From Achromobacter dolens (lineage in GTDB: Bacteria; Pseudomonadota; Gammaproteobacteria; Burkholderiales; Burkholderiaceae_B): a DNA stretch of 63,763 nucleotides. The DNA is taken from the NCBI RefSeq assembly GCF_902859745.1, contig NZ_CADIJW010000035.1, positions 1-63,763 of the forward strand, given 5' to 3'. This document shows positions 51,966 to 59,766 of this stretch, piece by piece. Both the position numbers and the translations under genes were made by a program. Numbering within the stretch: the stretch's first letter is position 1; each line of letters opens with the position of its first letter. Below the pieces are notes generated by a model. That model worked only from the letters and a program-made list of their open reading frames with translations. It did not search any database and was not told where the DNA came from.

Positions 51966-52304
51966 GGAGTGACTGGATGGAGGCGGGCGGCCGTCAATGG
52001 AAAATCGCCTTCCTCGAAGGGAAGGACCGCTGCATGCCCGGGCGCTTCAAAGGATGGCTTTTCCCCGCCGGGCCGCCCCAAGGGGAAAAAGCCCCCTCGG
52101 GGGGCAGAGAGCCCCCGCAGGGGGCGAAGCGTGGGGGCATATTCCCCGCTGGGCCGCCCCAAGGGGAAAAAGCCCCCTCGGGGGGCAGAGAGCCCCCGCA
52201 GGGGGCGAAGCGTGGGGGCATATTCCCCGCCGGGCCGCCCCAAGGGGAAAAAGCCCCCTCGGGGGGCAGAGAGCCCCCGTAGGGGGCGAAGCGTGGGGGC
52301 ATTT
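51966..52304. other. 339-base gap upstream of murJ, mostly tandem repeat
   Basis: No gene is supported here. About 95 bases next to murJ are unique and probably hold its promoter. The remaining 243 bases are three 81-bp repeat units. Open frames across the repeat exist only because 81 is a multiple of three. Confidence 0.75.
52061..52303. repeat. Three tandem copies of an 81-bp hairpin-rich repeat
   Basis: Copies begin at 52061, 52142 and 52223 and differ at only a few positions (for example GCC to GCT at the front of copy 2, and CCCCCGC to CCCCCGT in copy 3). Each contains CCCC-AA-GGGG, a GCCCCC-TC-GGGGGC stem and a second C5/G5 stem, then GAAGCGTGGGGGC. The last copy abuts the stop codon of the SDR gene. 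A diverged single copy lies at 27326-27396. Confidence 0.9.
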
Positions 52305-53194: not shown

Positions 53195-54708
<1,514 letters not shown>

Positions 54709-54720
54709 GATACGGGCGGG

Positions 54721-54903
54721 TCAGGAGGAAACGGGGGCGTCGTCCAGCGAGCGCGCTTCCGATTCGAGCATGACGGGAATGCCGTCGCGCAGCGGGAATG
54801 CCAGGCGGTCGGCGCGGCAGACCAGTTCGGCCCGGGTGCGGTCGTGTTCGAGGCGGCCCTTGCACAGGGGGCAGACGAGGATGTCGAGAAGGCGGGATTC
54901 CAT
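54721..54903 (-). CDS. Trm112/UPF0434 family small protein
   Basis: This 60-residue protein has the YcaR/Trm112 pattern [22 protein letters not shown] with two cysteines (C11, C14) and [17 protein letters not shown]. In many proteobacteria it lies between lpxK and kdsB. Here it is the first gene of the Trm112-kdsB-adk block, and an igaA-like gene on the other strand separates it from lpxK. The C-terminal metal-binding cysteine pair of some members is incomplete (a single C29). Confidence 0.9.
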
Positions 54904-55096
54904 GACCGGGATTCTAAAGCAGTTTGGGCGGGCGCAGCCCGCGCCGGGCCGCCTCGCGCGCCGGAAATGAGGGGCGCGGGAGGGTCGAATTACTTGTTTT
55001 GTTAATTGTTGTCATGTTTTGACGCTCCGCGCCAGAAATTTCGGGACGGATGATGGCTATGATCCGCCGCGACGTGAGGAAAGAGGAAACACGACA

Positions 55097-57334
55097 ATGG
55101 ATTCCAACACCATCCGCATCGGACTGATGCTCATCATCCTGGCCTGGACGGTCATCAGCGCCATCACCTACATGGCGCGCCGCAGCGGCAACAAGGACGC
55201 ACTGCGCCAGCTCAAGCGGGAAGGCCAGCCGTTGCGCCGCCTTGGCGCCGAGGAGCAGGCGCTGGTGCAGCCATTCCTGGTGCGGCCCGCCAAGCCCACG
55301 CAAAGCGTCGCGCTGCTCAATGACGGCGTGTTCCCGCTGCGCGGCGCCTTCGTGCGTCACGGGCTGGAATCGAGCCACGGCGCCGCCACGCTGCACGACA
55401 CGCTGGGCGGCGTCGACGTGGTGCTGCCCTACGACGCGCGCGACTATCTGCGCGAGGACAACCAGGCCGAAGTGGTGCTGACGGAGAAATTCGCCATCGT
55501 GGTGGCGCTGAACGGCGGGTTCGACCTGGCCGGCGGCCGCGAGCGCGAGGCGCGCCGGCAGAAGCAGAACCAGCAATGGTCCAGCGGCAAGCTGGGGGCG
55601 ATGCAGGACGTGGTCGATGCCGACGCGCCCGCCGCGCAGGACGCTGGCAACGCGCCCGACGCCCAGGCCGAACGCGAGTTCGCCGACGCCATGCGGGTCG
55701 AGATCCTGAGCCAGCGCGAGGAAACGCCCGCCGAGATCGCCTGGCGCCGTCCGGCAGGCGTCGCCTTCTGGCCCGCCGTGTGGTGGCTGGCGGCGTTCGT
55801 CTGCCTGGGCGTGGCCGCGGCGGGCGGCGGCCTGGCGTGGCTGGCCTCGGCCGCCGCGCCGGCGCTGCTGGCCGTCTGGCTGACATGGCGCCGGCGCCCG
55901 TTGGGCGCGGCGCAGAAGGTGAACCGGGTGCGAGGCGAACTGAACGCGATCGTGCTGACCAATCCGGCCAACGCGCAGGCGGTGTCGACCCAATTGTTCC
56001 TGGGCGACAAGCTGCCGGTGACGCTGCCCGATCATTGGCGCGCCAACCTGGAGCTGCCGGATGACGGCCGCGTCGACGTGGACCTGCGGGTGGAGGACTA
56101 CACCGTGCTGCGCCTGGGCAACCGGTTTTCCGTGGATGAAGAGCAGCGCCTGTTTCCCCAGGTGGCCTGGGGGCGCCACGTGACACTGGCGCTTGCGGGG
56201 CTGATCGCGGGCGCGGCGTTCGGCCTGATCGGTGACGGCGATCTGCGCGGCGACGTCGCGCTGGCGTCGGCGTGGGCGCGTGGCGCCCAGCCGCGGGTCT
56301 ACGACTCGGCCACGGCGTTGGCCCAGGACCCGCCCGCGCCCGGCGACGTGGTGGCCCTGAAGGGCGCGGGCCGCTGCCAGTTCCAGCCGGACGCTTACCG
56401 TCAGGGCGAGGTGCGCTTCGATTGCGAGCGCATCCGTTGGCAGGGCGATGCGATCCAGGCTGGCGAACTGCGGGTCACGCCGGCCGCGCTGGCGTTGTAT
56501 TCGGGCGGTTTCCTGAAGACCCGGCCCAATCCGATGATGGACATGCTGGTCCGCAACCAGGTGTATGGCAGCGTGGCCGGCAATCCGCTGGCCGCTTACA
56601 ACGCCCGCAATGTCTCCGCGGTGACCGTGAATCGCGTGACCGATCTGGTGCTGACGATCGAACTGGCCTGCGAGGCCGCCACGGGCCAGGCCATCGCCGA
56701 GTGCGACCGCCTCAAGGCCGAGACGGTCGATGGCCTGATGCTGGCGCGCGACGAGCCGGACAGTTGGCTGGCACTGTTGCGGCTGGCGCAGGGCGGGGCC
56801 TTCAGGCAGCAGGGCAATGCCGACGAGGGCGTCATCATCGCGCACGTCGCCAACCGGCTGCGCGGCCTGGCCAGGAGCAGCATGGAGCCGCAGTTGCGCG
56901 AGGCGTTGGCGCGCGCCGGCAACGACCTGATGGCGCGCCAGCGCGGCGGTGTCGTCCTGCAGGTGTGGCCCGGCCGCTACGCCGATATGCCGCAATTGCC
57001 GCCGCGCGACGAAATGCCCGATCTGCTGCAGTCGTGGAGCCACCAGACCGCGATGCTGGCGGCCGATGGAGCCCGGCCATTCCAGGCTGGCGGCGTGGTC
57101 ACCGCGGTCGGGCGCGAGGCGTCCGGCACAACGGTCGTCGACGTCGATGCGCGGCTTTCGCTGGACGATCCATGGCCGTCGCTTGCGCGGGTCATCTGGC
57201 TGGCGCTGGCGTTGCTGCTGCTGGCGGTGCATGTGCCGCTGGCGGTGCTGCGGTTGCGCGCGGCGGCTGCCCGCAAGCGTGGACTGGCGGAATACGCGCG
57301 GCGACCGGTCGCTGCGCGTTCGGCCTTTTTCTAG
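55097..57334 (+). CDS. IgaA/UmoB-family inner-membrane protein
   Basis: This 745-residue membrane protein is homologous to IgaA (YrfF) of enterics. It has one N-terminal transmembrane helix ([22 protein letters not shown]), a large cytoplasmic part, then helices near residues 225-265 and 365-385. A periplasmic domain of about 260 residues follows, with a final helix near 705. The periplasmic blocks GAGRCQFQ...[10 protein letters not shown] and [19 protein letters not shown] preserve the four cysteines of IgaA (here C427, C443, C525, C536). IgaA restrains the Rcs phosphorelay; no Rcs gene is visible. Its TAG overlaps the lpxK stop. An upstream in-frame ATG (55019) is rejected. Confidence 0.82.
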
Positions 57335-58383
57335 GAAGGCTGTCCCACAGCGCGCTGGCGCAGCGTCTGCGCCAGCCAGTCGAACAATCGCGGATCGGAA
57401 AAGCCGGCCCGCACCGGCACCTCCCACAGGCGCGCGTCATGCAGGGCGGCGCATTTGATGGCGTCCTTGGACGTGACCAGGATGGTCCGAGCGGCCAGCG
57501 CCTGGAAGGGCGAGGTGGCGTAGTCGTGGTGGTCAGGCAGGGGCAGCGTGGCCGCCAGCGTGATCCCCTGGGTTCGCAGCGTGGCGAAGAAACGCTCCGG
57601 GTTGCCGATGCCGGCGGCCGCCGCCACGTCCGGCTGGCCGGCGAAGGCGGCCAGCGGGCGGCGCGCGCCGCCTTCGATCTGGCGGGCGTCATCGGGTTCC
57701 AGCCACATGGCGACCTGGCGCGGCCCCGGGCCGGAGGGCGCCGCCGCGTGTCCGCCGGGCACGCCGATATTGGTGATCACCGCGTCCACCTCGCGCAGCC
57801 GGCTGGCCGGTTCGCGCAAGGGGCCTGCCGGCAGCAGGCGGCCATTGCCGACGCCGCGCTGGTCCTGCACGACGATTTCCAGGTCGCGCGCCAATGCCAG
57901 GTGTTGCAGGCCGTCGTCGGAAACGATCACGTCCACCTGGGGATGGGCGCGCAGCAGTGCCTGGGCGGCCAGCGCGCGGCGCGGATGCACCGCCACGGGC
58001 GCGCCGGTGGCGCGCGCGATCAAAGCGGGCTCGTCGCCGAATTGCGCGGCTTCCAGTTCGCCCTGGCCGACGCGTGCCTGCGGTCCGAGTTTCACGCCGT
58101 AGCCGCGGCTGACCACGCCGGGCGTATAGCCGCGGGCGCGCAGCGCGTCGACGGTGGCAATGACCATGGGCGTCTTGCCGGTGCCGCCCACGTAGATGTT
58201 GCCGATCACCACCACGGGCACCGGCGCCCGGTAGGCCGTCGCGCGGCCGTCGCGGTAGCGCGCGCGCTTGCGCGCCACCACGCTTGCGGTCAGCGCGGAC
58301 AGCGGGCGCAGCAGGGTGGAGAGCCAGCCGCCGCGCTGCCATTGGCGCGCAATCAGCGAGGCCTTGGGGCGGGACGAAGTCAC
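57331..58383 (-). CDS. lpxK: Tetraacyldisaccharide 4'-kinase LpxK
   Basis: This 350-residue kinase phosphorylates the lipid A disaccharide. The P-loop is [19 protein letters not shown] near residue 55, with VVSRGYG near 90, [17 protein letters not shown] near 160 and LPDHHDY near 300. Translation starts at GTG overlapping the exbD stop (GTGA), so it is coupled to exbB-exbD. Its stop shares a CTAG with the stop of the convergent igaA-like gene. Confidence 0.94.
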
Positions 58384-58793
58384 CGGGCGGTCTGGGCGGC
58401 GAAGTTGACGCGGCCGATGCCGGCCAGGCGCGCCGCTTCCATGACGTTGATCACGGACTGGTGGGTGGCCTGCGCATCGGCGTTGATGACCACCAGCGGT
58501 TCGGTCTTGCCGGCGGCGGCCTGGCGCAGCACGTCGGCGATCTCGGGCGGCGTGGAGACGTCGATCAGCGTGCCATTGAGCGCATAGCGCCCATCCTGGC
58601 TGATCGCCACTTCCAGCGCCGGCGGGGTTTCCTGCTCGGCCGAGGCCTGCGGCAGCGTGACCTTCAGTTGCGTGAAGCGGGCGAACGAGGTGGTCGCCGC
58701 CAGGAAGATGAGGATGACCAGCAGGACGTCGATGAGCGGAATCAGGTTGATGTCCAGCTCGTCGCGGTCGCCCCGGGAGCCCCGGAAATTCAT
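58380..58793 (-). CDS. exbD: ExbD/TolR biopolymer transport protein
   Basis: This 137-residue protein has one N-terminal transmembrane helix with the essential Asp in [25 protein letters not shown] (residues 13-37, span) and a periplasmic domain ending in [19 protein letters not shown]. With ExbB it uses the proton gradient to energise TonB-type transport. It starts at an ATGA overlap with exbB and ends in a GTGA overlap with lpxK. Confidence 0.95.
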
Positions 58794-59464
58794 GGACGGT
58801 CCTCGCGCGCGGCGGAGGCGGGCGACACCGCGCGCGCCAGCCGCGCGGCCGACAGTTCCATGGCGTTCAGGTAGCCGTCGACCCGGCCGCGCAGATAGCG
58901 GTGCGCGATCATGGCGGGGATGGCGATGAGAATGCCGAAGCCGGTGTTGTAAAGCGCGATCGAGATGCCCCGCGCCAACTGGGCGGGGTCGCCGCCGCCA
59001 GGCGTGTACGAACCGAAGATTTCGATCATGCCGACCACGGTGCCGAACAGTCCCATCAGCGGCGCGACCACGGCGATGGTGCCGATGGCGGGGATGTAGC
59101 GGCTCAGGTCATGGGCCACGGCGCGGCCGGTGTCCTCGACCACGCTGCGCAATTCCTCGCGCGGCAGATGGCGGTGGCGCATGACCTCGGCCAACACGCG
59201 GCCGAGCGGCGAATTGCGTTCCAGGCGGCTCAGGGATTCGGGAGAATCCTGGCGGTTGCGCAGCATCTCGGCCACTTGTTCGTTCAGGCCGCGCGGCATG
59301 ACCTGGCTGCGGCGCAGCGACAGGAAGCGCTCGAAGATCAGCGCAAGACCCAGCACGGAAGTCGCCAGCAGGGGCCAGATCGGCCAGCCGGCCTCGCGCA
59401 AGATGGAAAGCAAAGCGGTCAACTCCAGGTGCGCCGGGGGACGGGGAGGGCCACGCGCCGGCAT
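58790..59464 (-). CDS. exbB: MotA/TolQ/ExbB proton-channel protein
   Basis: This 224-residue membrane protein has three transmembrane helices: [24 protein letters not shown] (about residues 26-49), [28 protein letters not shown] (about 123-150) and [25 protein letters not shown] (about 167-191). The second and third carry the channel Thr/Ala residues. The start is uncertain; the ATG of MPARGPP is used here, and an in-frame ATG 20 codons upstream or a TTG further in are alternatives. It heads exbB-exbD-lpxK. Confidence 0.9.
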
Positions 59465-59766
59465 CTGCTCAAGCCGGAACTGTAACGGCGCGGCCGGGAT
59501 GTGGCAAGGCCGGCCGGACGGCAAAACTATCCACAGAATTTGTGGATAATTCTGTGCAAAACTTCGCCGGAACGCTTGCGGGCACAGGGCTTGCGCTTGG
59601 TTGCTTCAAATTCGAGCAACCGTGCATGGTCAGAAATTCCATAAAAATCATGTTCTTAGGTCGAATTTGCTAGCTTTCGGGGCCTGCCGCGGCAAAAATG
59701 CCCGGACGCGGTATCATGGCGGCCCGCTACGTATGCCCTGTGGACAGGTACGCATCGGAAAGCCTT

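Follow-up and report, generated by a model that had tools for sequence, protein, structure and literature searches.

The igaA-family gene that we describe here, located in a 63,763-nucleotide stretch of Achromobacter dolens DNA (the window), encodes what is, by profile comparison, a full-length member of the IgaA family in a distant version. Its function is likely to be other than that of the canonical Rcs brake, as had been predicted: RcsD and RcsF were not found in the genome with one domain model each, and most of the residues with which enteric IgaA contacts these proteins are not kept. A preprint presents IgaA as a unique protein of the inner membrane whose role is to restrain the Rcs system (PMC13317618). 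We consider it quite possible, if still short of probable, that the Achromobacter protein is an IgaA-type brake on an envelope-signaling partner other than RcsCDB/RcsF, one in which the cytosolic switch is conserved and the periplasmic partners are others, a mechanism that we infer.

The gene (55097 to 57334, + strand) starts with an ATG behind an AG-rich, Shine-Dalgarno-like stretch read directly from the sequence (55076 to 55089, +) and encodes 745 amino acids. IgaA (PF07095) was the only Pfam-A family on this open reading frame (118.3 bits against a cut-off of 25; E = 3.6e-34), and a search of the protein against NCBIfam matched no family. An hhalign comparison of a profile built from 21 Achromobacter homologues with one built from 15 enteric IgaA sequences aligned 652 columns (probability, 99.9; E = 2.2e-35). 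Cysteines C427, C443, C525, and C536 of the window protein align with C404, C425, C498, and C504 of E. coli IgaA and are unchanged across a 12-sequence alignment; the set of four is complete in 20 of the 21 Achromobacter homologues, one carrier (G973) being without one of them, and in all 5 of the other non-enteric homologues. These four periplasmic cysteines are the sites of two disulfides in the IgaA family, and the corresponding bonds in the Achromobacter protein are predicted. The original prediction of a 745-residue IgaA homologue with four periplasmic cysteines was thus borne out by a significant family match and by the cysteine alignment. Hydropathy peaks at residues 2 to 28, 219 to 264 (with room for two segments), 360 to 383, and 691 to 725 fit five membrane segments, on hydropathy only, and the predicted protein would have about that many, together with a large periplasmic domain that holds the four cysteines. 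The AlphaFold2 model of the window protein was poor (mean pLDDT, 47.6), and profile matches to the sequences of structures 9biy and 4uzm had E values of 3.7e-4 and 0.051, respectively.

Domain matches confirmed all of the neighbors that had been named around the gene, with igaA on the opposite strand between lpxK and the trm112-kdsB-adk block. Among its immediate neighbors, igaA alone is on the + strand; the genes matching ADK, KdsB, Trm112p, LpxK, ExbD, and MotA/ExbB are all on the − strand. The gene converges with lpxK (57331 to 58383, −; LpxK, 360.6 bits), with which it shares the sequence CTAG as overlapping stop codons. Upstream of lpxK are exbD and exbB/tolQ-type genes (58380 to 59524, −; ExbD, 99.5 bits; MotA_ExbB, 94.2 bits). 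On the other side, 193 bases separate igaA from the divergent genes, which are a trm112-like gene (54721 to 54903, −; Trm112p, 62.3 bits), kdsB (53944 to 54708, −; CTP_transf_3, 196 bits), and adk (53195 to 53851, −; ADK, 195.7 bits). The window also contains an 81-base tandem repeat of 3.0 copies at 98% (52061 to 52302), which has murJ on one side and a short-chain dehydrogenase gene on the other.

When the stretch from kdsB to lpxK served as a DNA query, all 43 Achromobacter genomes searched were matched, and the sites were then tested by tblastn; this set includes G975, which is 57% complete and has its site interrupted by the end of a contig, and the 78% complete G970. The igaA gene lay between trm112 and lpxK in 21 of the 43 genomes, and none was present at the site in the other 22, where 44 to 160 bases separate the end of the lpxK match from trm112. 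PF07095 was missing genome-wide in six of these noncarriers (G003, G075, G118, G137, G153, and G192); for the other 16, the site and the DNA search are the basis for calling igaA absent. There was no igaA in the best loci of nine outgroup genomes from eight genera of the same family, and trm112 and lpxK lie within about 310 bases of each other in eight of the nine. The adjacency of lpxK and trm112, which had been taken to be the usual state, was therefore found both in the Achromobacter genomes that have no igaA and in nearly all of the outgroup. The remaining outgroup genome, G009 (locus L136), has about 1.2 kb between the two genes, and igaA was not matched there. Another arrangement was seen in G964 (L108, 227 to 4186), which has two lpxK copies about 2.9 kb apart, each 81% identical to the window LpxK.

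Beyond this site, a search whose reach is limited to close relatives returned seven named relatives of the window protein at 59 to 93% identity, all of them from Achromobacter. Carriers of PF07095 made up 7 of 200 genomes in a family sample (in 3 of 43 genera), 3 of 399 in an order sample, and 17 of 398 in a phylum sample, 14 of the last being in family f58, which we treated as enteric because its IgaA matches score 945 to 1190 bits. Five carriers in these samples are outside both Achromobacter and f58: G103, G031, G308, G673, and G772. A search of a plasmid collection for IgaA gave four records, three of which are chromosome-sized and come from E. coli. In the same collection, a gene of Eleftheria terrae bears the annotation IgaA/UmoB family; its product is 37% identical to the window protein, and such relatives are therefore already named in public annotation. 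The Eleftheria gene is surrounded by genes for non-ribosomal peptide synthetases, on a linear plasmid of 784 kb (NZ_CP106952.1; L159, 11992 to 14220).

The place of igaA beside lipid A, KDO, and ExbBD genes had been taken as a hint of a lipopolysaccharide or TonB link. We rejected this link because the flanks of other carriers differ and because noncarriers have the same block: 22 Achromobacter genomes keep lpxK-trm112-kdsB without igaA, and the scanned igaA flanks in the five other non-enteric carriers hold neither lpxK nor trm112. In G103 and G031, kdsB and lpxK are on a different contig from igaA.

Alignment of the 21 carriers revealed a conserved block upstream of igaA (54999 to 55022, +; consensus about TTGTTAATTAWTGTCATRTTTTGA), which in the window lies 75 to 98 bases ahead of the start of igaA and which we propose as a regulator site of igaA. 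The block can be recognized in 21/21 carriers, those of G045, G966, and G975 being changed at several positions, and its 16-base core is matched once in the 63.8-kb window (expectation at ≤3 mismatches, 0.03). Within it, TGTYA recurs 10 bases apart, a pattern that could serve a response regulator as a direct-repeat site. We found no convincing match to the block upstream of igaA in the five other non-enteric carriers; the fractions of 200 shuffles that scored as well were 0.18 for G103, 0.045 for G031, 0.07 for G308, 0.455 for G673, and 0.795 for G772. A proposed −10 element of igaA, TATGAT (55058 to 55063, +), appears as TATSAT at the same place in all 21 carriers; a consensus scan scored no sigma-70 promoter and no terminator. 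Closer to trm112, the proposed promoter of trm112-kdsB-adk, GATTCTAAARCAGTTTG (54910 to 54926, −), is retained, little changed, in both carriers and noncarriers. Two upstream blocks stand out in the carriers, TTGTTAATTAWTGTCATRTTTTGA and, next to trm112, GATTCTAAAACAGTTTG, the latter being kept by noncarriers as well.

By tree and scars, igaA dates to the base of Achromobacter and was later lost about eight times. On a DNA tree of kdsB, trm112, and lpxK, the distribution of igaA needs nine changes, at least six of them forced by well supported branches. Eight changes are needed on a protein tree rooted with the nine outgroup genomes, a tree made by a quick method and with long outgroup branches, on which the earliest-diverging lineages of Achromobacter (G045 and then G968 and a clade of nine) contain carriers only. 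For the 21 carriers, the tree of igaA itself has the same branching as that of the flanks, the exceptions being G980 and G968. As for scars, in G961, the sister of carrier G971, roughly the final 30 bases of igaA remain ahead of lpxK, and weaker 3′ igaA remnants were found in G955, G003, and G981. This 3′ test covered 20 of the 22 noncarriers (G963 and G964 were too short); 16 of the 20 showed no remnant, and the other 4 beat all 100 shuffles. At the 5′ side, the TTGTTAATTAWTGTCATRTTTTGA block was sought in all 22 noncarrier spacers and stood out in G962 only, where a degraded copy with 3 differences in 24 positions (the best of 300 shuffles had 9) now runs into the end of lpxK. These five noncarriers likely carry deletion scars, which represent four separate losses, two of them clear (G961 and G962), because G003 and G955 are sisters. 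As another reading of the 3′ remnants, the last igaA codons may have arisen from pre-existing spacer, which we consider less likely. The original description of igaA as inserted is amended accordingly: we rejected a recent insertion in this strain because the igaA and flank trees nearly agree and some losses left scars, and the gene is instead, on the same evidence, ancestral to Achromobacter and repeatedly deleted.

The repeated losses, together with an igaA protein identity that drops faster than that of its flanks, would suit a decaying leftover without function. Such decay is very unlikely, given that the reading frames are intact in 21/21 Achromobacter genomes, with no internal stops, that the upstream block is conserved, and that 20 of the 21 proteins retain the four cysteines. 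In seven close pairs, dN/dS was 0.15 to 0.39 for igaA, compared with 0.14 to 0.19 for lpxK and 0.03 to 0.21 for kdsB, and igaA is, by this measure, under purifying selection. So the gene is old in Achromobacter yet dispensable to the genus, about half of whose genomes have no igaA at the site, while by comparison igaA is reported to be essential in E. coli and Salmonella (PMC5744062). Essentiality in those two is ascribed to the harm that freed Rcs does there (PMC5744062, PMC7418988). Loss on about eight occasions implies that the Achromobacter protein restrains nothing lethal in the species that lost it or that it went together with its client. Achromobacter igaA is in this respect like gumB of Serratia, an enteric with Rcs in which a gumB deletion mutant is used (PMC6586354), and dispensability alone therefore does not distinguish Achromobacter igaA.

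We searched for Rcs partners in 19 genomes, comprising 5 Achromobacter carriers, the 5 other non-enteric carriers, 6 Achromobacter noncarriers, and 3 f58 controls. RcsD_ABL (PF16359) matched 0/16 non-enteric genomes, including the window genome, and 3/3 enteric controls; RcsF (PF16358) gave the same result, with 0/16 non-enteric genomes, the window genome included, and 3/3 controls positive. The expectation that Rcs is absent held for RcsD and RcsF in the window genome and extends to these two models only. This result suggests that the brake serves another partner in Achromobacter.

The residues of IgaA pointed in the same direction. Work on Salmonella IgaA reports that R188H, T191P, and G262R weaken Rcs repression and that R188H is unstable in stationary phase (PMC5744062), and a preprint assigns A94 and R97 to the cyt1 switch of IgaA, L472, I476, M481, and L483 to contacts with RcsF, and R506, N509, N513, and strand 535 to 540 to contacts with RcsD (PMC13317618). 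R188, T191, and G262 correspond to R207, T210, and G280 of the window protein and are identical in 21/21 Achromobacter and 5/5 other non-enteric homologues. R97 is kept in 25 of these 26 (21/21 and 4/5), and A94 varies among enterics also and is uninformative. In the periplasmic domain, L472 is kept in 1 of the 26 non-enteric homologues, N509 in 2, and R506 in 12, all of the last counted among the 21 Achromobacter proteins and including the window protein, and I476, M481, L483, N513, and V537 are kept in none; the alignment over E. coli residues 472 to 483 and 535 to 540 is weak, at about 24% identity. The alignment of helix 506 to 514 is firm because the helix directly follows the fourth cysteine; when it is read without gaps, N513 faces D in the window protein and N in 1/26 homologues (G772). 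Seven of the contacts (L472, I476, L483, R506, N509, N513, and V537) are invariant in 15 enteric sequences, and the window protein retains R506 only. Over the 26 non-enteric homologues, these seven are retained on average at 8%, compared with 36% for 73 other enteric-invariant periplasmic columns, and 2.8% of random draws were as low. As aligned here, most of the periplasmic contact residues for RcsF and RcsD are replaced and the cytosolic repression residues are kept. Conservation of the core and of the cytosolic switch, combined with replacement of the recognition face, is in keeping with a brake on a different client, although the cytosolic residues could serve folding only, given the reported instability of R188H (PMC5744062).

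The same conserved switch, R97 included, would also be expected if IgaA restrained a divergent Rcs-like phosphorelay that the RcsD_ABL and RcsF models miss. The absence data cover just those two models, and yet IgaA itself was detected at an identity to E. coli of only about 24%; the models failed in every non-enteric genome while finding their targets in every control, and the periplasmic contact residues are mostly lost. On balance, we regard a divergent Rcs system as distinctly unlikely.

Compared with E. coli and Salmonella IgaA (YrfF), the window protein shares whole-length homology, the four disulfide-type cysteines, R188/T191/G262, R97, and probably, as judged by hydropathy, the topology, and it differs in its low identity, in having no RcsD or RcsF match beside it in the genome, and in the replaced contacts. 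The neighborhoods also differ, since Achromobacter igaA is next to lpxK and trm112 and enteric igaA is next to nudE, yrfG, and hslRO. UmoB of Proteus and GumB of Serratia are linked to the window protein through the family name borne by its Eleftheria relative; GumB acts via Rcs, and UmoB, 42% identical to GumB, is reported to fail to replace it (PMC6586354). The homologues of the five other non-enteric carriers are 32 to 41% identical to the window protein and have the same conserved core, again with RcsD_ABL and RcsF not found, and, unlike the window igaA, each is beside different genes. The open-licence literature that we consulted describes no function of IgaA outside enterics.

Two of these neighborhoods contain signaling genes. 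In G031 (L014, 6421 to 11335), the igaA relative has a GGDEF protein on each side, and one of these also contains PAS domains. In G308 (L041, 4410 to 11283), a response regulator, a kinase, a DUF218 gene, igaA, and creD are in a row on one strand, the regulator and kinase being named CreB/CreC by position. This row indicates that the IgaA family can sit with a two-component system. Control of the CreBC system itself by IgaA, as that layout would suggest, is extremely unlikely. CreD (504 bits) and the regulator-kinase pair do flank igaA in G308, and carriers G673 and G772 have CreD as well; CreD is missing from carriers G031 and G103 and from 43/43 Achromobacter genomes, carriers and noncarriers alike, and only 1/10 genomes of the G308 family has igaA, the other 9 being without it. 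We rejected a Cre link for the window, as far as CreD marks the system, and the client in Achromobacter must therefore be another. The signaling genes in G308 and G031 also bear on the reading of IgaA as a structural or envelope-assembly protein with no signaling client, whose fold had another envelope role before its recruitment to Rcs. The scanned neighbors in G103, G673, and G772 are unrelated to signaling, the conserved residues can be read as a fold core, and igaA is absent from its site in so many Achromobacter genomes, all of which suit a structural role; the G308 row and the GGDEF neighbors in G031 argue against it, and we hold this role to be unlikely.

Returning to the brake on a different partner, the periplasmic domain would bind a different sensor or anchor, and cytosolic loop 1 would use the same switch surface, the one near the RcsD PAS-like domain, to hold its client, a sensor kinase or the like. 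Envelope stress would loosen the periplasmic contact and thereby free the client, and a regulator may bind the conserved block upstream of igaA. The gene could be lost, unlike in E. coli and Salmonella, because a freed client need not be lethal. It is also possible, if on the unlikely side, that IgaA is older than Rcs and arose as a mobile, loss-prone membrane brake with interchangeable clients, in which a constant cytosolic switch is coupled to a periplasmic recognition face that changes fast, that the Achromobacter client is an envelope-stress kinase, and that Enterobacterales later fixed IgaA on RcsD/RcsF, where it became essential in E. coli and Salmonella. Homologues that keep the core and the switch without RcsD or RcsF let one ask what IgaA does before or without Rcs and which part of IgaA acts as the brake in general. 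For these questions, nature has already run an experiment in Achromobacter, with 21 genomes that have igaA and 22 that do not, at one fixed site and in some cases with a scar.
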